A stretch of DNA of 64,000 nucleotides, taken from positions 1-64,000 of the forward strand of contig JABFRU010000058.1 of the NCBI GenBank assembly GCA_013140985.1, given 5' to 3'. Both the position numbers and the translations under genes were made by a program. Origin of the DNA: Chitinophagaceae bacterium (GTDB lineage: Bacteria; Bacteroidota; Bacteroidia; Chitinophagales; Chitinophagaceae). The notes under the pieces are model-generated. The model ran no database searches. It was not told the origin of the DNA and worked only from the letters and a program-made list of their open reading frames with translations. Shown here in pieces: positions 4,160 to 62,464 of the stretch (position 1 is its first letter; each line of letters starts with the position of its first letter).

Positions 4160-5062
4160 TCATACAGGTTGAATAACACGGAAACATTTTTTCTTTATTT
4201 CAATTTTCAATGCTGCACTGGTTTCGGCAGGATCGCCGTCAATATGCAATGGAGCTAAGGAGGGGTTTAGAATTGTTAGTTTCTCTGTTTGAAAATAAAT
4301 AACCCCTTTATTATCTTTTATCAATGAGTCTGCCTGTAATTTATTCCAACCGGCCAATTGTCTCAATGTCTTCAATATGAAACTCAATTTGTTTTTACCG
4401 GTTACAATGACAATATCCAGCAAACCATCTGAGAGACTTGCTTTAGGAGCAATGGTGAAATTATTACCGAACTGGTTGCTGTTGGCAATACTGATAAACC
4501 ATGCTTCTGTTTCAATAGTGCGATGTTGTAATTGTAGTTGAAACGGATGAGGTTTCATCTTCATAAAATTCCTGAAAGCCATTTTAGCATACGTTGCTAA
4601 ACCTCTCTTAGGCTGATCCGCAAAATCATGCGCCACCTTTGCATCATAACCTAACCCGCAAAGCATGCAGGCAAATCTGTCATTGATATAAAATCCATCA
4701 ACAGCAATTGCTTTACCATTGAAAACAATATCCAATGCTTTGGAAACCTGTTTTGAAATTTTTGCAGAATTGGCCAAACCATTTCCCGAGCCGCAGGGAA
4801 TGATACCGAAGTTCACATCGCAATCCATCAGTCCTGCCACGGCCTGGTTGATAGTGCCATCACCGCCGGCAATAACAACATCCGTTATTTTTTGTTCTTT
4901 GATGATGGAATGAAGAAAAGAATAATCGCCGCTGGCAACAGAAGGAAATATTTCAAAGGGAAAACCTTTTGCCTTTGTTTCTTTTTCAATAAAAGATTGA
5001 AAATCCTTTTTGATTCTTGTACCTGAAATAGGATTGATGATATAGATGATGCGGCGTGACAT
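4160..5062 (-). CDS. Diacylglycerol/lipid kinase family protein (YegS/DgkB type)
   Basis: Cytosolic or membrane-associated lipid kinase that would phosphorylate diacylglycerol or a related lipid from ATP. The nucleotide-binding motif AGGDGTINQAV (DAGK catalytic domain) and the following CGSGNGLA are intact, and a C-terminal YegS-like beta domain with DGDP follows. The start is ATG at 5062 (MSRRIIYIINPISG), which opens exactly at the family N-terminus; a 14-residue upstream extension reads through non-conserved DNA next to an inverted repeat. About 300 residues, the usual length. Possibly expressed with fabH, 100 bp upstream, although an inverted repeat lies between them. Confidence 0.9.
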   Translation of the reverse strand: MSRRIIYIINPISGTRIKKDFQSFIEKETKAKGFPFEIFPSVASGDYSFLHSIIKEQKITDVVIAGGDGTINQAVAGLMDCDVNFGIIPCGSGNGLANSAKISKQVSKALDIVFNGKAIAVDGFYINDRFACMLCGLGYDAKVAHDFADQPKRGLATYAKMAFRNFMKMKPHPFQLQLQHRTIETEAWFISIANSNQFGNNFTIAPKASLSDGLLDIVIVTGKNKLSFILKTLRQLAGWNKLQADSLIKDNKGVIYFQTEKLTILNPSLAPLHIDGDPAETSAALKIEIKKKCFRVIQPV

Positions 5063-54296: not shown

Positions 54297-54650
54297 TCTT
54301 TACCTTTTTTCTTGACAAAAAAGGTAACCAAAAAGTCAAGCCAATTCGATGAACGGGTCTTTACTGCCAGCTCACTTTGCGAATTGGCATCCGGAAAGTC
54401 TTGCCCTGCGGGGATCATTTGAAGATAATGCTGCTTGTTATGTGAGGATGCTGAAGCGCTGGCTTTTTCGCATGGAAATATTTTGTCGGGATAAACATTT
54501 GTTGATGCGAAAAAGAGGCGCAGGGAAATTTACTTTGATCGTAATCTCTATCGTATAATAAAAAGGGTTTGCTATTCGAATAACTACAAAGCATTTTCAA
54601 AGTATCAGGGTCTAAAACCCCTCCTTGGGAGGGGCTTGGGGAGGCTTTCT
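54297..54650 (+). repeat. Composite ~350-bp repeat, copy 1
   Basis: In order: a TTCTTTACCTTTTTTCTTGA/CAAAAAAGGTAAC hairpin; AAGTCAAGCCAATTCGAT; CTTTGCGAATTGGC; a block ending in a 66-bp hairpin whose arms are GCGCTGGCTTTTTCGCAT and ATGCGAAAAAGAGGCGC (54456-54521); TTTGATC; and a CCCCTCC-TT-GGGAGGGG hairpin followed by GAGGCTTTCT. All blocks recur in the same order in copy 2 (60712-61063, opposite strand). It ends at the stop codon of the deacetylase gene. It fills most of the 510-bp gap between gmk and that gene. Confidence 0.8.
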
Positions 54651-55518: not shown

Positions 55519-55915
55519 TGATTGAAGGTAAAAAAATTTATTAGCCCGCCAGCAGTTCTCGCCCTGGCGGCGGTTTAAAATGGTAAAGAAATTTTTTACT
55601 CAGCTGCAGTACTACTATCATCGTCCCTTGCGTCGCACTCTTGTGCTGCAGGAATTCTATTCAGCATTTGCAGGGTTTTGCCAAAAGCAGCACGCCGTTG
55701 CTGTGTGTTGAGTGCTGATAAAGCAGCTGAGTAAAAACACCAGCAACATCGAATGAGATTATTGGGTGTCTTATATTCGTTTGTTGGTGTTTTTGCTATT
55801 ACACAAGCCGGCACGCAACACACAACAAAGGCCGCTCAATGATTCGGAAGACCAACAACGGCGTGAACAAGTCCTGAACGCCATGTTGTGTGTCTTCACG
55901 CAACACTTTTACGCC
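55519..55915. other. Non-coding stretch dense in hairpins
   Basis: No convincing gene. Seen: perfect arms TTTACTCAGCTGC (55595-55607) and GCAGCTGAGTAAA (55723-55735), then AAAAACACCAGCAAC (55733-55747) with GTTGGTGTTTTT (55783-55794), and repeated GTGTTG/CAACAC words. It leads directly into hairpin element A. It could encode a structured RNA. Confidence 0.45.
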
Positions 55916-56090
55916 GTGGCGGGTGTTTTTCTTTCACCCGCCACTGTTCTTTAGTAAATTTCTTAGATGTATAAAGCAGTGGGAGATGGGTGTCTTTACT
56001 TTGCTGTGGTCGGTGGAAGAAAACACCGGCCATGGCGTGTTATTTTTTGCCTGTCCCGCACTATGCGGGGGGAACACCCGCAAGGGCGGA
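55916..56090. repeat. Composite hairpin element A (hairpins 1 and 2)
   Basis: Hairpin 1 (55916-55944, minus) is GTGGCGGGTG-AAAGAAAAA-CACCCGCCAC. Hairpin 2 (56006-56033, plus) is GTGGTCGGTG-GAAGAAAA-CACCGGCCAT followed by GGCGTG. They are separated by 61 bp starting TGTTCTTTAGTAAAT. The tail has a CCCGCA-CTA-TGCGGG triloop and GGAACACCCGCAAGGGCGGA. Same layout as element B. Confidence 0.8.
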
Positions 56091-56099
56091 GATGGTTTA

Positions 56100-56459
56100 T
56101 TATCTCATTCTAATCTCAACTACTATATCTGGCTCTCGATAGTTTCCCATTTTTATAAATTTTTCGCATGAGCCAGTAGCGCCTCTTGTGTCGGCTAATG
56201 TTACTGTGTAATTCAGCTTTTCAATTAACTTACCTTCATAAAAAAACAAAGCCAAAAATTCATCAGCGCTCATTCCAGTTTTACAATAATGCCATTCTTC
56301 AACATTTTTCCTAAAATCGCTTTTAGTAGGAGAGCCCATAATTGTTTCTACATCAGCTTTTGTCATACCAGGACTCAATTTATGCGAGGCGCTTAATTTT
56401 TGTTGGACCCCGCAGGAATGCAGCAGTGCGATTAATAATATACTTAAAACAACTTTCAT
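56100..56459 (-). CDS. BamE/SmpA-like lipoprotein
   Basis: A 119-residue lipoprotein (lipobox LLHSC). The SmpA/OmlA pattern is clear: LSPGMTKADVETIMGSPTKSDF (about 28-49) and EEWHYC. BamE stabilises the BAM outer-membrane assembly complex in Proteobacteria, but many small Bacteroidota proteins share the fold with other roles. The C-terminal segment runs close to hairpin element A, 10 bp from its end; the last residues may therefore be affected. Lies downstream of the interrupted small gene on the same strand. Confidence 0.72.
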   Translation of the reverse strand: MKVVLSILLIALLHSCGVQQKLSASHKLSPGMTKADVETIMGSPTKSDFRKNVEEWHYCKTGMSADEFLALFFYEGKLIEKLNYTVTLADTRGATGSCEKFIKMGNYREPDIVVEIRMR

Positions 56460-56490
56460 ATTTGGGTTCGATTATTGGTGAGTTTAGTAT

Positions 56491-56817
56491 TTAAGTAGCA
56501 AATTTTATTTTTACACCGTGGGGGGGGGTGTTTTTTCCTTCACCCGCCACTGATCTATAGTAAATATTTGTTGAGTAGGGTTTCCGTATTTCATGTGGTC
56601 GGTGGAAGAAAACACCGACCACGGCGTGTTGTTTTATTTGGAACACCTGCAAGGGCGGAAAAAAAATAAGAAGACCCGTAGGGTTTTTTTCAAACTCGCT
56701 TTCATCATAATTTTCTTCGAGTCGGATATTAACTTCAGTAACAATATCACTAAAAGAATTTTCATTTAGTTGCTTTGTTAAGTGCTCTCTGAGATCTATT
56801 GCTTGAGTTGAAGTCAT
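56491..56817 (-). pseudogene. Small gene whose 3' part is hairpin element B
   Basis: The first about 48 codons look like a real soluble protein (TSTQAIDLREHLTKQLNEN...VTEVNIRLEENYDESEFEKNP). After about position 56665 the frame reads straight through element B (FFPPLQVFQ... EGKNTPPH) to a stop at 56491. The native C-terminus seems to have been replaced or lost when the element arrived. The start is 14 bp after the stop of the GGCT-like gene, so the two were probably one operon. Confidence 0.5.
56518..56659. repeat. Composite hairpin element B (hairpins 3 and 4)
   Basis: Hairpin 3 (56518-56550, minus) has CACCCGCCAC on one arm and an expanded GTG-G9-TG arm on the other. Hairpin 4 (56595-56622, plus) is GTGGTCGGTG-GAAGAAAA-CACCGACCAC followed by GGCGTG. 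The spacer starts TGATCTATAGTAAAT. The tail GGAACACCTGCAAGGGCGGA matches element A at 19 of 20 positions. Confidence 0.8.
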
Positions 56818-56830
56818 ACAAAAACTTTTA

Positions 56831-57382
56831 TCAGTCTATATGGGTCCATCCAAATTCTTTTTCAATTTTTCGCCTGTAATTTGTGTCAATTTGCATTGGT
56901 GTTTTTCTAATATACTCCTCAGCAAAGGCTGTTTTATTTACATCAAGTGAACGTAAGTACAAAATAACTTCATTTTCAGTAGGAACTCGCTCCTCTTCAC
57001 CAATTCGTGGCGGAAGATTAGTCCATATAGCCGCGTCTAATTCTAAACTTATTAACCAATTCTTTATTAAAGCCTTAACCTCTTCTGTCGTTTCCTCATC
57101 TTTTGTCACCGAAAGAATTTTATTTCCAGTATTGTTCTTGCCAATACCTTCACGAATTCGAAGTGATTCAATTGCTTCTACAGGATTTTCAGTTGCCATC
57201 AAAGCCCAAAGAGTTCGTACTGGCTTTGCTTCTGCTGTGATTACAAGAGTTATTCTTCCATTGTCTGATTGTCTTGCAAATTCTACTCGCAATAGTGGCC
57301 CATCTGTAAACCACTTTCGTCTAATAAGTAAATTTTCTGGCCTCCAAATTAGAGACCCCCAACCAATGCAAGCAATTTTCAT
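56831..57382 (-). CDS. Gamma-glutamylcyclotransferase-like protein
   Basis: A 183-residue cytosolic protein. The N-terminal KIACIGWGSLIWRPENL resembles the YGSL motif that binds the gamma-glutamyl group in GGCT/ChaC folds; GPLLRVEFARQSDNGRITLVI follows. I recall a widespread uncharacterised family with the GWGSLIW...EFAR pattern. A catalytic Glu cannot be assigned with confidence. It starts 14 bp after the stop of the AAA_13 gene and so is probably co-transcribed with it. Confidence 0.72.
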   Translation of the reverse strand: MKIACIGWGSLIWRPENLLIRRKWFTDGPLLRVEFARQSDNGRITLVITAEAKPVRTLWALMATENPVEAIESLRIREGIGKNNTGNKILSVTKDEETTEEVKALIKNWLISLELDAAIWTNLPPRIGEEERVPTENEVILYLRSLDVNKTAFAEEYIRKTPMQIDTNYRRKIEKEFGWTHID

Positions 57383-57396
57383 ATTACAATGTGTGT

Positions 57397-59955
57397 TTAA
57401 TTTAAAAAGTTATTTCTTATTGTTTTAAATTCCTCAAGATCTGTTTTTAGTTCTGCTATTTTGGGAGTTGTATGTATTTCCTCTGGACTACTATGTCCGT
57501 CAATAGAAACGCAACATTTTTCGTAAATGTCGTTCAGTTTTGATTTATGCTCATCTATTTTACTCCCTTTAACTCGAAGTAAGGAGGGAAATGCAACTCC
57601 TTTTTTATAGCGTTTAATTGTTTTCTGAAATAAGGAATCTTCAACAGTAATTTCTACCATTGAACGTAGATGCCCATATCCTTGCGCTGCAATTTTAGCT
57701 TCTTCCTGATCTTGATGATTTGCATTTAAAAGTGCGTTTAATTTCTTTTCATAATAGGAATAAGAGTTTATTTCTTCAACCTCATCCAACACTCCTGTTT
57801 CGCCGAAATTTTCCTTGACACGATGAAATGCAAATGAAACTCCTGCTTGTTTATGATGTTCTAACTCTTTTTGCTGTAGAAAACTATGTAATAATAATAT
57901 GCTGTGAGTAAATACAATAACTTGGCGATGTTTTGATAATTCAATAAGTCTCTTAACCACTTCATCAATTATTCTATGGTCAAGGGAATTTACGGGATCG
58001 TCAAAAACGATTGGTGCTTTGATGTTGTCAAGTTGTAGTTCGGTTAAGAATTCCGCTAAAGCAATTGCCTTTTGTTCTCCTTCACTTAAAATGTCTGCCA
58101 AAGCATGGTGGCTTATTTTTTGAAAAACTTTTGAGCTCCCTCTGTCTGTTCCAAAACTCAGGTCTATTTTTAGATTTGCTTTTCTCAATGCGGACAATTC
58201 TTTTTTGAAAAGGGCTTCAAAATCTTGCCTTACTAATTCTTCTCTCGCCGATGATGTTTTTCGACTGATAGCAGCCGTATTGAAACTGTTTGCATTGTTG
58301 TTAAGTTTATTTACAATTATATGATTTGATATTGCAGTTTTAATCTCAGGGACTTTTCCTGAAAGAAGTTTTCTGTCTTTCAACTCATCAATTTCTTTTT
58401 TTAGGACTGTTTCTCGTGTAGCAAGGTTTGCAAGTGCTTCTGATCTTTGAGTTAAAACACTATTGATCGCTGTTCTCTTATTAGTTAAAAAAGAAATCAC
58501 AACTTGATATTCAAAAATGAAAGTAGAATCTTGTGCAACTGCACCATCAATAAAAATAGTTTTTAATTTGCCTAAATTTTGGTTGTATTCGATAATTTCT
58601 TGTGGCTGAACTGCAGCTTGATTTTCACTTGTTCCAAAAGAGGGTTGATGAAAAGTTAGGTTGGTGTCTATTTGTGAAACCTGTTGAATCAATCTTGTTT
58701 TTTTTTGTCGCAAAGCATTTAGGCTTTCTTGTGTCTTGTCATTAAGGAGTATTCTGTAATTTTTCAGCAATTCTTTTGCAGAAACATCAAGAGGCTGCAA
58801 ACAGTAAATGCAGGTATTGCCTTCTTCGGGATATTCATCCTTGTTTATAATCTTAATGTAGTTCTCAGCAGCTTGAATGAAAGAATTGAATTCTGCAGTT
58901 TGATAAAATTCAATTCCTCTTTGCTCAGCGATATCCTTGATTCCTGTCTGAGTTTTCTTTTCCAACTCGGAAATTTCCTTGTTGAATATTATCAGGGATT
59001 CCCAATTTGTTGAGTTGAACAGGTTTTGAGCATTTTGAATTTTTCCAATTAAGGAATCAAACTCCTGAATCTGGCTTCTCATTGCCTGAATTTCGGCTTG
59101 CAACAATGTCTTGTTCAGGTTTGCAAGTTCGGACACTTTTGCTGTCAAGGTTTCTTGATGTGCCTGTGTGAAATCAGAAAGTTGAGTTAGCTTTTGTTCA
59201 GACGAATTTCCAGAAAGTGTTGTAATGAAATTGCATTGAGGTGTTACTGGTGTCAGGTTAATTACCCAAAGCAGTGATGTAGGATGTGCTATAACTTTTG
59301 CTTGAAGCAACTGACTAAGTTTATTCAGTTCGTTACTGACAAGTTGAAACAAATGAAATCCAATTGGTGAAACGATTAAATTTCTGTCGCTAATTGAGAA
59401 TTGAACGCAACTGCTGTTGAATACGGAAATATTTTCAAGTTCAGAATTAGTGTTAGCTCCATTCCAGATAAAAGTTTGTGGAGTTCCGTTTGACTTGAAG
59501 TTGATTGTTGCTGACTTAGGTTCGGTTGCACCATAGATATTTGGCAAAATGGTTTTGTTTGTATCGTAACTAAAACCAAGTGTTTTCAAAATTCTGCTGT
59601 AACCAGTCTTACCAGTTCCGTTCTCTCCATAAATGACTGTAATATTTTTTGCAAAATTGACTGTCTGATTCTTCGCAAGACGGTTTACACCTGTAATAGC
59701 TGAAAGGGAATCCAACTCTATTTGTTTTGTCGTTGGTGTGTATGTTGGTTTCGCTATTGAGAGTGTTGGCAAACCTGAGTGAAGGTTAATTGATTGAAGA
59801 AAGTAATTGAATACTTCATCTCTGTCGACAGTAGAAAGGGGGCTTTCTGTAATTACAATTTTGCTGATAAGTAATTTACCCCAGTCTCCTTGACTTGCTG
59901 CCCATTCCCAAAGGAAATCAACTATTGCTTTTTTATTTGTTGTAGTCGAAGCCAT
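57397..59955 (-). CDS. AAA_13 / RloC-like SMC-type ATPase
   Basis: An 852-residue ABC-type ATPase. Walker A is GENGTGKT (110-117), the signature LSEGEQ (623-628), Walker B PIVFDDP (648-654) and the H-loop His at 684. Between the ATPase halves are coiled coils (about 200-600) with a CIYC pair (382-385) like a zinc hook, as in Rad50 and RloC. The C-terminal about 150 residues carry YGHLRSMVEITVED with R764-x3-E768 and later DGH with H821, the order reported for the PrrC/RloC anticodon nuclease triad (R, E, H). An anti-phage tRNA nuclease is plausible but not proven. First gene of a likely three-gene operon. Confidence 0.82.
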   Translation of the reverse strand: MASTTTNKKAIVDFLWEWAASQGDWGKLLISKIVITESPLSTVDRDEVFNYFLQSINLHSGLPTLSIAKPTYTPTTKQIELDSLSAITGVNRLAKNQTVNFAKNITVIYGENGTGKTGYSRILKTLGFSYDTNKTILPNIYGATEPKSATINFKSNGTPQTFIWNGANTNSELENISVFNSSCVQFSISDRNLIVSPIGFHLFQLVSNELNKLSQLLQAKVIAHPTSLLWVINLTPVTPQCNFITTLSGNSSEQKLTQLSDFTQAHQETLTAKVSELANLNKTLLQAEIQAMRSQIQEFDSLIGKIQNAQNLFNSTNWESLIIFNKEISELEKKTQTGIKDIAEQRGIEFYQTAEFNSFIQAAENYIKIINKDEYPEEGNTCIYCLQPLDVSAKELLKNYRILLNDKTQESLNALRQKKTRLIQQVSQIDTNLTFHQPSFGTSENQAAVQPQEIIEYNQNLGKLKTIFIDGAVAQDSTFIFEYQVVISFLTNKRTAINSVLTQRSEALANLATRETVLKKEIDELKDRKLLSGKVPEIKTAISNHIIVNKLNNNANSFNTAAISRKTSSAREELVRQDFEALFKKELSALRKANLKIDLSFGTDRGSSKVFQKISHHALADILSEGEQKAIALAEFLTELQLDNIKAPIVFDDPVNSLDHRIIDEVVKRLIELSKHRQVIVFTHSILLLHSFLQQKELEHHKQAGVSFAFHRVKENFGETGVLDEVEEINSYSYYEKKLNALLNANHQDQEEAKIAAQGYGHLRSMVEITVEDSLFQKTIKRYKKGVAFPSLLRVKGSKIDEHKSKLNDIYEKCCVSIDGHSSPEEIHTTPKIAELKTDLEEFKTIRNNFLN

Positions 59956-60113
59956 TTAATTTACCATTTATCTGAATGTTCTTGGTTAGTGTCGTTTCTA
60001 GCCAAACTACAAAGCGTTTATAGCAAACAAAAAAATATTCCCCCTTCTTCAACTTTATCAATAAAATCCTGCAACTTTTTCTAAGAAAGGTTTCTCTTGT
60101 CAAAAACTACAAA

Positions 60114-60632
60114 TCACTTCATCACTTCCTTCACCCAATCCTCCAACTTTCCTTCTTTATCCGCAACAATCGCTTTGTCAAGATCTTCATCAGCATTTAT
60201 CTGTCCGCCGAGTTGGTAACAATTAATAGCAGCTTTCACTCCTGCTGTATTAGCTTTTAGCGGATCGAAAGCATTATTGTTTCCCAGGCATTGCCGGGCA
60301 ATACCTCCCAGCCACACCATCATCAGGTCAGCATTCTTATCAAAAAGAACAGTGCTGATATTGGCATCAATACTAAAAGTGATATAAGGACAATCGCTCA
60401 TCCACATCAATACCCAGGCATTCATGGTAGTACGCTTTAACGAACCCGTATCGATAGGAGTGGTCTCCAACCACAATACGGCTTTCAAAAGATCGGCTTC
60501 TGATTTCTTAAATTCTTTTTCAGACTTGGGATTTTTCTTCGGCGCTTCAAAATCTTTTACTGAAGGATCTTGCGCAGCTACAATAACAGACAGCAACAGG
60601 AAGCAAACGAGGGTGGAGGTTCGTTGTCTCAT
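60114..60632 (-). CDS. Secreted protein of unknown function
   Basis: A 172-residue protein with a signal peptide (cut near VAAQ). The mature part has a Lys/Glu-rich start (KDFEAPKKNPKSEKEFKKSEADLLKAVLWLE), then NAWVLMWMSDCPYITFSID, LMMVWLGGIARQCL and DEDLDKAIVADKEGKLEDWVKEVM. Two Cys may form a disulphide. I do not recognise the family. The gene lies inside the block bracketed by the composite repeat copies. Confidence 0.65.
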   Translation of the reverse strand: MRQRTSTLVCFLLLSVIVAAQDPSVKDFEAPKKNPKSEKEFKKSEADLLKAVLWLETTPIDTGSLKRTTMNAWVLMWMSDCPYITFSIDANISTVLFDKNADLMMVWLGGIARQCLGNNNAFDPLKANTAGVKAAINCYQLGGQINADEDLDKAIVADKEGKLEDWVKEVMK

Positions 60633-60711
60633 AGCAGATAAGGGTTGGTGGCTACCCTAAGCTAAGAAAGGTTTTTTATAGTACAAAAAGAGGCTCCCAG
60701 CCTTCCATAAG

Positions 60712-61063
60712 AGAAAAGCCTCCCCAAACCCCTCCGCAAGAGGGGCTTTAGACTCCGCTAACTTGGAAATACATTTATTATTCGGCAGAGTCTATGATCA
60801 AAATGAATTTCCCTGCGCCTCTTTTTCGCATTGACAAATGCTTATTTTTTATACAACACTTCCATGCGAAAAAGCCAGCGCTGCGGCATCTGCAAATAGC
60901 AAGCAGCATTATCTGCAAATGATCCCGGCAGAGCAAGACTCTCCGGACGCCAATTCGCAAAGGGAAATTTGTGATATAAGAACCCCCGTTATCGAATTGG
61001 CTTGACTTTTTTTTCGTAATCCTATCGGATTACCTTTTTTTGTCAAGAAAAAAAGTAAAGAAG
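60712..61063 (-). repeat. Composite ~350-bp repeat, copy 2 (inverted)
   Basis: Read on the minus strand it has the same blocks in the same order as copy 1: a TTCTTTACTTTTTTTTCTTG...GGTAATCC hairpin, AAGTCAAGCCAATTCGAT, CTTTGCGAATTGGC, the GCGCTGGCTTTTTCGCAT...ATGCGAAAAAGAGGCGC hairpin (60817-60881), TTTGATC, and a CCCCTC-TTGCG-GAGGGG hairpin followed by GGGGAGGCTTTTC. The two copies bracket the 6-kb block 54651-60711. Confidence 0.8.
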
Positions 61064-61076
61064 ATCATCTGGTTCG

Positions 61077-61105
61077 GTGGTTGGTGGAAGAAAAACACCA
61101 ACCAC
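61077..61105 (+). repeat. Hairpin 5 of the GAAGAAAA-loop family
   Basis: GTGGTTGGTG-GAAGAAAAA-CACCAACCAC followed by GGCAT. A perfect 10-bp stem; its central pairs (TTG/CAA) differ from those of hairpins 1, 2 and 4 but remain paired. It lies 13 bp beyond composite copy 2 and is a single copy, not paired as in elements A and B. Confidence 0.8.
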
Positions 61106-61421
61106 GGCATTATAACACCCACCCCGGTTCCTGATCATATATAGATCATGTTATTCGCCCCTCCGGGGAGGGGATGGTGTATCATCTTCACGGCGTAAAA
61201 AAAGTAGAAGAAGCTTTAAATTATAGGAACTCACTTAAGTCAAGAGTCTTGAGATACCTCGTTCCTCGGTATGACAAGACCCTGATTGATAAAGAAACTC
61301 CGCAAATGCTGAATAGAATTACCGAACGATGAAGTGAGTGACACAAGGGACGATGAGTAGAGAACGGGACGATGGCAAAATAAAAATCGTGGAGATTGCT
61401 TCGGCTTCGCCTCGCAAGTGC
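61106..61421. other. Non-coding stretch with fragments of widespread repeats
   Basis: No gene is seen. It contains a CCCCTCCGGGGAGGGG palindrome (about 61159-61174), GAGATACCTCGTTCCTCGG...ATGAC (61251-61274) and GAGATTGCTTCGGCTTCGCC...GCAA (61392-61417). The last two words are of a type I recall from intergenic repeats of many unrelated bacteria. The final fragment abuts the stop codon of the TPR gene. Confidence 0.4.
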
Positions 61422-62316: not shown

Positions 62317-62464
62317 TGTCCCAGAGGGACAGTTGGTGGGTGGCTGTAGATTTTCAGAATCATCTCGTTCCGTAGGAACGATTGGTGCCGGCACGAGATG
62401 TCCCTACGGGACATTGCGCTAAAAAAGTGACATTGTTTTACCCATGAAGCGTCCCGATGGGACG
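62317..62464. repeat. Cluster of GTCCC-N3-GGGAC hairpins
   Basis: TGTCCC-AGA-GGGACA (62317-62331), CGTTCC-GTA-GGAACG (62366-62380, inside CATCTCGT...ACGAGATG), ATGTCCC-TAC-GGGACAT (62398-62414) and CGTCCC-GAT-GGGACG (62450-62464). They are REP-like: short perfect stems with 3-nt loops, four in 150 bp between two genes on the same strand. Confidence 0.7.

Follow-up and report, generated by a model that had tools for sequence, protein, structure and literature searches.

The DNA stretch analysed here, hereafter the window, consists of positions 1-64,000 of contig JABFRU010000058.1 from a Chitinophagaceae bacterium (assembly GCA_013140985.1, the source genome, whose other contigs are written C34, C52 and so on). 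An earlier note had described five hairpins in it, at 55916-55944 (minus), 56006-56033, 56518-56550 (minus), 56595-56622 and 61077-61105, for which it knew no name. All five are present at the positions claimed in the 64-kb window, and a name does exist: they are very probably REPs (repetitive extragenic palindromes) of a GCC-tagged kind found in Bacteroidota, mostly arranged as REPINs, and nonautonomous partners of one subfamily of the RAYTs (REP-associated tyrosine transposases, HUH/Y1 enzymes acting on single-stranded DNA), represented in the source genome by a gene on contig C52 (C52:20371-20886). A REPIN is a pair of REPs in inverted orientation with a common linker. The window contains two REPINs, one solo REP and one REPtron copy without a transposase gene, which are laid out as follows (bit scores are those of the hairpin model R1, with its own seed sequences marked as such).

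55686..55867, plus strand: RAYT-less REPtron copy; stretches resembling the two flanks of the C52 RAYT gene, upstream and downstream, adjoin each other and the gene is absent.
55692..55747, minus strand: long-loop REP; ACGCC, stem GTTGCTG, long loop, CAGCAAC; aligned to a C52 RAYT flank.
55780..55832, plus strand: long-loop REP; TTTGTTG, long loop, CAACAAA, GGC; aligned with a C52 RAYT flank.
55911..56038, unstranded: REPIN 1; two inverted REPs with tags outward and a linker homologous to that of other source-genome pairs.
55911..55944, minus strand: REP, arm A of REPIN 1; ACGCC at 55911-55915 (plus), perfect 10-bp stem GTGGCGGGTG, 9-nt loop; on the minus strand it reads stem-loop-stem-GGCGT; 60.9 bits (seed).
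56006..56038, plus strand: REP, arm B of REPIN 1; tag GGCGT at 56034-56038; 54.9 bits (seed).
56071..56090, plus strand: putative half-REP beside REPIN 1; GGAACACCCGCAAGGGCGGA; repeat family D3; right arm and GGCG tag only.
56513..56627, unstranded: REPIN 2; overlaps the 3' part of a 108-aa open reading frame (56491-56817, minus) that is perhaps a truncated gene.
56513..56550, minus strand: REP, arm A of REPIN 2; degenerate, ACACC replacing ACGCC; 29.2 bits, E 0.0019 (not a seed).
56595..56627, plus strand: REP, arm B of REPIN 2; perfect stem, tag GGCGT; 58.3 bits (seed).
56640..56659, plus strand: putative half-REP beside REPIN 2; GGAACACCTGCAAGGGCGGA; repeat family D3.
61077..61110, plus strand: solo REP; perfect stem GTGGTTGGTG, loop GAAGAAAAA, tag GGCAT; 61.2 bits (seed).

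Three of the five hairpins (55916-55944, minus; 56595-56622; 61077-61105) have perfect 10-bp stems, and they are the sole perfect 10/10 stems adjoining GCC within the window, where 13 candidates pair at 9 or more of the 10 positions, as against 0-7 in 20 block shuffles. The copy at 56006-56033 has two wobble pairs (stem GTGGTCGGTG/CACCGGCCAT), and that at 56518-56550 is degenerate, with an expanded G run, the loop AAGGAAAAAA and the tail GGTGT. The loop that had been called constant is exactly GAAGAAAA(A) in three copies and deviates in the other two. The pattern GGTGGAAGAAAANCACC, with up to 3 mismatches, has 7 matches in the window versus 0.53 expected, four of them being the hairpin copies. 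No window match to Rfam lies above any family's gathering score.

The earlier note had missed the arrangement of the hairpins in inverted pairs with a homologous linker, the end-specific stems, and the long-loop set at 55686-55870. The arms sort by end: one end carries CGG/CCG (arm A), the other TCG/CGA or TTG/CAA (arm B). More copies lie beyond the window, on contigs C34, C65, C72 and C79, and six source-genome pairs (two in the window, two on C79 and one each on C65 and C34) can be aligned over their full length including the linker, so that these six show the two-REP inverted layout with a common linker by which a REPIN or BIME is recognized. The two C79 copies are identical at 144 of 147 positions, the identity starting with TCCGCC and ending with CCACGGC; since it ends there, the tag is the end of the repeated unit. 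Twelve aligned source-genome copies have the form GTGG-NN-GGTG, an A-rich loop of 8-9 nt, CACC-NN-CCAC and then, mostly, GGC. In a search of the source genome in which 150 of 4966 candidates were scored, model R1 gave 19 matches at E<=1 and 15 at E<=0.002, 12 of the 15 being R1's own seeds. Copies of the flanking REPs are thus dispersed through the genome, in low numbers, and 11 of the 15 matches overlap a candidate open reading frame of at least 60 aa in any of the six frames.

The source genome has five matches to PF01797, and three of these, on C79, C37 and C52, are RAYT-like. Compared with the whole source genome, the stretch 55686-55870 matches only itself and both flanks of the C52 RAYT gene, in colinear order (C52:20921-20984, 89% identity; C52:20268-20373, 80%), together with a weaker match on the opposite strand (C52:20924-21007, 74%). 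The local alignment scores of the window stretch against the two flanks are 57 and 63, those of random stretches (200 each) reaching at most 15 and 16. It follows from the colinear matches that the window carries, beside its two REPINs, a copy of the REPtron from which the transposase gene is missing. In genome G086, whose RAYT is 67% identical to that of C52, the RAYT gene is immediately flanked on either side by GTGGCGGGTG and GTGGTCGGTG hairpins that are much like those of the window.

The layout around RAYT genes was followed at 30 loci for each of two RAYT types, the C52 type and the C79 type (the best 30 from each search), and at 80 named loci (the best 80 of 556 confirmed stretches in a scan of named genomes). 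At the loci of the two types, hairpins were counted as contiguous stems of at least 8 bp within 500 nt of the RAYT gene; a GGCG tag was accepted, at these and at the named loci, if it lay no more than 2 nt within the stem foot and no more than 1 nt past it. The C52-type loci have 93 hairpins, and 36 of them, spread over 18 of the 30 loci, carry the GGCG tag, with 32 tags pointing outward and 4 inward; 10 of the 30 loci have outward REPs on both sides. Among the 62 hairpins of the C79-type loci 3 are tagged, and these belong to 2 of the 30 loci. In the far flanks, 3 of 15 hairpins are tagged for the C52 type and 0 of 12 for the C79 type. Model R1 has 53 matches at E<=1 in 20 of the 30 C52-type loci and 2 at the C79-type loci, both in the source genome's own locus. 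At the named loci 70 of 229 hairpins are GGCG-tagged (64 outward, 6 inward), in 40 of the 80 loci, 16 of which have them on both sides. Inverted REPs flanking the RAYT gene are a trend of the subfamily. The hosts of the named loci include Chitinophagaceae, Pontibacter, Mucilaginibacter, Rufibacter, Arcicella, Cytophaga, Lutibacter, Winogradskyella, Flavobacterium and others, two records being from outside Bacteroidota (Ignavibacteria/Ignavibacteriae). In a survey of the phylum, the RAYT profile had a match at E<=1e-30 in 54 of 296 genomes, other RAYT types included.

The enzymes themselves belong to the RAYT family. NF047646, a model of RAYTs, is matched at E<=1e-5 by every one of the 26 proteins in set A3; the C52 RAYT scores 78.1 bits on it (cut-off 80) and two relatives 93.2 and 92.9 bits, and on the IS200 model the C52 RAYT scores 22.5 bits (cut-off 55). 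After 15 of the 80 named-locus proteins had been dropped for stops, frame or length, 65 stop-free proteins stayed (4 of them were left out of A4 by choice), of which 62 have the motif [ND]HxH and 63 Y[ILV]HxNP, the W motif being mostly WER. An AlphaFold2 model of the 67% identical relative L125 (pLDDT 95.2, pTM 0.90) has as its best fold match in the PDB 4er8, a TnpAREP bound to its REP hairpin (E 1.4e-9, 18% identity), and 4er8 is also the only match at E<=0.01 in a sequence-profile search of the PDB. In a tree of 78 RAYTs, built without the named loci L128, L146 and L193 (whose match spans an insert), the loop-side types of the REPs are clustered, with 12 changes versus a shuffled mean of 14.8, a number as low being reached in 0 of 200 shuffles. 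Good support is found for 13 of the 75 inner branches, and 14 rows lack a label; strict co-evolution is therefore not claimed. In one genome, G091 (L072 1490-2062), the RAYT reading frame continues past its usual end through the downstream REP, and the hairpin encodes the C-terminus.

Read so that the tag stands at the 5' foot, the hairpins have the order (C)GCC, a 10-bp stem whose four loop-side pairs are GGTG/CACC, and a T-rich loop; on the other strand the constant parts are the 10-bp stem with GGTG/CACC as its closing pairs, a loop rich in A, and GGC following the stem. With no tag chosen beforehand, and with the flank counted from the base beyond pair 10 or, in shorter stems, from the base beyond the foot, the first three bases outward of the stem are G (62%), G (74%) and C (51%) in 162 hairpins of C52-type loci, and A (63%), G (53%) and C (50%) in 30 hairpins of C79-type loci. 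Counted by locus among the loci with hairpins, GGC occurs in 41 of 63 C52-type versus 1 of 18 C79-type loci (p 5.6e-6; the source genome's C79 locus holds a GGC hairpin), and AGC in 1 of 63 versus 7 of 18 (p 6.4e-5). The AGC-tagged hairpins of the C79-type loci (L019-L048), e.g. CTGCAAGGCT-AAA-AGCCTTGCAG-AGC, represent a second tag other than GTAG. On the opposite strand GGC is GCC and AGC is GCT, at the 5' foot of the hairpin, which is the site of GTAG in classical REPs and of the guide sequences in IS608-type elements (PMC6006769, PMC8266576). The place of GTAG or GTRG at the 5' foot of the hairpin is taken by GCC in those 41 of 63 C52-type loci; the GTGG of the window copies sits inside the stem.

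The earlier note had also taken the joint changes of the stem pairs as a sign of selection on a folded RNA or single-stranded DNA. As evidence of compensatory change the five window copies are weak, because CGG stems belong to one end of an element and TCG stems to its other end: among the 12 source-genome copies (11 distinct) 2 of 10 pairs have changed on both sides, a count reached by 338 of 500 shuffles, and compensation within the window copies was rejected as proof. In the same 12 copies, the share of paired cells (99.1%) and the covariation score lie above all 500 shuffles. Better evidence is found in other genomes, in which the outer six pairs do covary. When the pattern CGCC-N6-GGTG-N3-11-CACC-N6-H, which leaves the pairing of the outer six free, was run on 195 genomes of the family, it gave 1004 matches versus 352 for the reversed pattern. 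Among 150 of the 1004 that were examined, all six outer positions pair in 34, five in 11 and four in 4, versus 1.7, 3.4 and 11.8 with the arms of the same 150 shuffled; the other 101, with 0-3 outer pairs, are chance matches or decayed copies. Near the RAYT genes of the 80 named loci, GGTG-N3-9-CACC-N6-GGC has 87 matches in 33 loci (70 outward, 17 inward), with 6/6 outer pairs in 65, 5/6 in 18, 4/6 in 3 and 2/6 in 1. Hairpins picked on sequence alone thus pair at the outer six positions, which supports selection on the folded strand.

From these matches, 67 hairpins distinct by locus (33 loci) hold 24 stem sequences, and on the tag strand the last two loop bases are AA in 65 of the 67. Positions 1-6 share 1.10, 0.58, 0.58, 0.11, 0.61 and 0.64 bits of mutual information with their true partners, the fourth pair being nearly constant and within the shuffle maximum, and off-diagonal values are 0.02-0.42 bits, highest between positions 5 and 6 (the shuffles ignore relatedness). 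Neither identical stems in the other copies nor a lack of covarying pairs, the outcomes that would have spoken against a selected fold, was found. One could still ask whether the covariation reflects no more than descent from a few ancestral stems, with no selection for pairing. The source-genome stem types do sort by element end, with both-side changes that do not exceed shuffles, and positions 5 and 6 each have 0.33-0.42 bits in common with the partner of the other, which is what linked descent would lead one to expect. We nevertheless regard this explanation as extremely unlikely, given the number of stem sequences in 33 loci, the occurrence of all four Watson-Crick pairs at position 1 (GC 22, CG 15, AT 9 and TA 9 of 67), and the contrast at positions 1 and 2 between the values for the true partner and those for the others (0.02-0.13 bits).

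That the hairpins are kept for an RNA function, as terminators or mRNA stabilizers, and have spread by chance duplication seems highly improbable to us. Effects of REPs on mRNA stability and on termination are reported (PMC6006769, PMC3733652), and some B arms of the source genome are followed by a T-rich stretch (GGCGTGTTATTTTTT). However, TTTT occurs within 12 nt of the stem foot in only 13 of 152 hairpins near RAYT genes, so that the T tract of an intrinsic terminator is generally missing, and the 24 mismatches on the tag strand show no preference for G-U (5 G-T versus 8 A-C); moreover, the layout is strictly arranged around a gene for a single-stranded DNA transposase. Single-stranded DNA is therefore favoured over RNA as the folded strand, and the REPs may have a side role as RNA. 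A new RNA family was likewise rejected, on the rare T tracts, the lack of wobble bias and the lack of an Rfam match in the window. A different assignment, also very unlikely in our judgement, would give the pairs to the C79 RAYT instead of the C52 type: one pair is found some 40 nt past the stop codon of the C79 RAYT gene, and two copies are near that gene. The second of these, though, is 1.7 kb further on, beside another gene, and C79-type RAYTs have AGC-tagged hairpins of their own. The C79 RAYT was rejected as the cognate enzyme since its relatives lack the hairpin, the only two R1 matches at their 30 loci being those of the source genome itself.

The reading of the hairpins as GCC-tagged REPs of C52-type RAYTs is borne directly by the family and fold of the enzyme, the inverted REPs on the two sides of the RAYT gene, the tag, a stem that covaries, a repeated unit that ends at the tag, and the gene-less REPtron of the window. 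As to mechanism, RAYT would bind the single-stranded hairpin at the loop and the loop-side part of the stem, GCC would guide cleavage adjoining the REP, and the element would be moved, or a copy of it made, while the DNA replicates. The outer pairs of the stem would be free to vary as long as pairing is kept, and this freedom would give rise to covariation.

A number of points weigh against this reading. Mobilization by RAYT, i.e. both movement and cleavage, is something that we infer, and a search for an empty site, made at one REP locus in two congeneric genomes, found none and gave repeat matches only. REP copy number in the source genome is low (19 R1 matches at E<=1). The C52 RAYT is itself flanked by long-loop REPs, without the GAAGAAAA-type; the spreader of the short-loop type here is therefore possibly a lost RAYT similar to that of G086, which may have distributed the source genome's short-loop REPs. 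Half of the named loci (40 of 80) have no GGCG-tagged hairpin by the tag criterion given above, and 64 of 80 are not both-sided (some reach a contig end). In addition, the median pattern excess is 3 in 29 genomes with a C52-type RAYT, chosen by identity and length from 66 with a match, versus 1 in the other 166 (p 0.008; genomes with fragments or weaker matches were placed among the 166), which is a modest difference. Several genomes rich in the pattern are not among the 66 with a match, namely G172 (excess 53), G005, G089 and G166.

We lean, by a little, towards the further view that two or more Bacteroidota RAYT subclades have left the GTAG code and use guides of their own, GCC in the C52 type and GCT in the C79 type. 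If so, Bacteroidota would offer a natural series of re-coded single-strand-DNA transposases. In the pairing rule for GTAG REPs, CT is chosen by A3G4, and GTGG gives CC (PMC8266576); by analogy, the cleavage dinucleotides are predicted to be GG for GCC and AG for GCT.

Other features of the window were noted in passing. Between the REP cluster and the solo REP lies a gene for an 852-aa AAA_13-type ATPase (57397-59955, minus), whose 1264.5-bit match to PDC-S06, a candidate defence model, is full-length. Related sequences at 54519 (minus) and 60817 (plus), consisting of GCGCCTCTTTTTCGCAT, about 35 nt and GCGAAAAAGC, are perhaps another dispersed hairpin family. Inverted long-range repeats at 55618-55678 and 61295-61356 form two arm pairs, 84 and 92% complementary, and a stretch that looks similar by eye occurs in L011 near 4440-4500. 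Palindromes with CCCTACGGGAC/CCGTAGG at 62367-62412, which by eye resemble sequences around two other Y1 transposase genes of the source genome (L014, L015), are perhaps GTAG-type REPs.

REPs, REPINs and RAYTs are ordinary in kind; what is unusual here is the tag. REP/RAYT systems are already known, as are Bacteroidetes RAYTs with 'atypical' structures, and it is the GCC tag together with its RAYT clade that is apparently new: no GCC- or GGCG-tagged Bacteroidota REP was found in the literature searched, the supplementary list of subclass 2.6 structures in PMC6006769 lying outside that search. The finding supplies a name and a search model for dispersed Bacteroidota hairpins that otherwise resemble orphan RNAs or terminators. 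With the GTAG REPs and TnpAREP (PMC2817692, PMC3733652) the elements have in common the form of a short palindrome with a 5'-foot tag on one strand, the inverted pairs, and inverted REPs around a HUH/Y1 gene, and the stems of Stenotrophomonas REPs likewise keep their pairing while the sequence changes (PMC2817692). They differ from GTAG/GTRG REPs in the (C)GCC tag, the 10-bp stem with mostly GGTG/CACC on the loop side, and the few copies. GTAG REPs usually exceed 100 copies per genome (PMC2817692), compared with the 19 R1 matches in the source genome and a maximum of 55 strict-pattern matches in one of the 195 genomes (both may undercount). The phyla with GTAG REPs that are named in the passage concerned of PMC3733652 do not include Bacteroidetes, and PMC6006769 places Bacteroidetes also in subclass 2.4, whose REPs are canonical.

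TnpAREP subclass 2.6, or RAYT group 5 (PMC6006769), resembles the enzymes described here in its Bacteroidetes hosts and its NHxH and YIHxNP-like motifs. Its RAYTs are flanked by 'atypical secondary structures' without GT[AG]G and with copies elsewhere in the genome; these are described as weaker and identified by hand, and the main text of that paper, as far as it bears on them, gives no tag (PMC6006769). Of the motifs NH[LIV]H, WQ and YIH[QN]NP given for the subclass (PMC6006769), HxH and YIHxNP are kept here, the W motif in these proteins being mostly WER. RepRanger (PMC12306157) lists three Bacteroidota genomes, and its text contains neither 'RAYT' nor 'tetranucleotide'. The CGTC REPs (PMC3733652) are similar in being short palindromes with a tetranucleotide tag one letter off CGCC, often in head-to-head pairs, and are described there as having 8-9-bp stems, nearly all of which start with A-T pairs, CCA-like tails and no dedicated transposase. 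The hairpins studied here have mostly 10-bp stems, any type of pair at position 1, and a GCC tag. The HUH/Y1 fold is shared with IS200/IS605 elements (IS608, ISDra2), whose end hairpins lie on one strand, unlike the inverted hairpins described here. In those elements single-strand cleavage is guided by hairpins (PMC6006769, PMC8266576), and the REP/RAYT biochemistry presented in PMC8266576 is that of proteobacterial, GTAG-tagged systems. Natural variation in the proteobacterial GTAG systems says little about the guide code, whereas the GCC- and apparently GCT-tagged REPs of Bacteroidota, standing beside separate RAYT subfamilies, make the guide rule testable.

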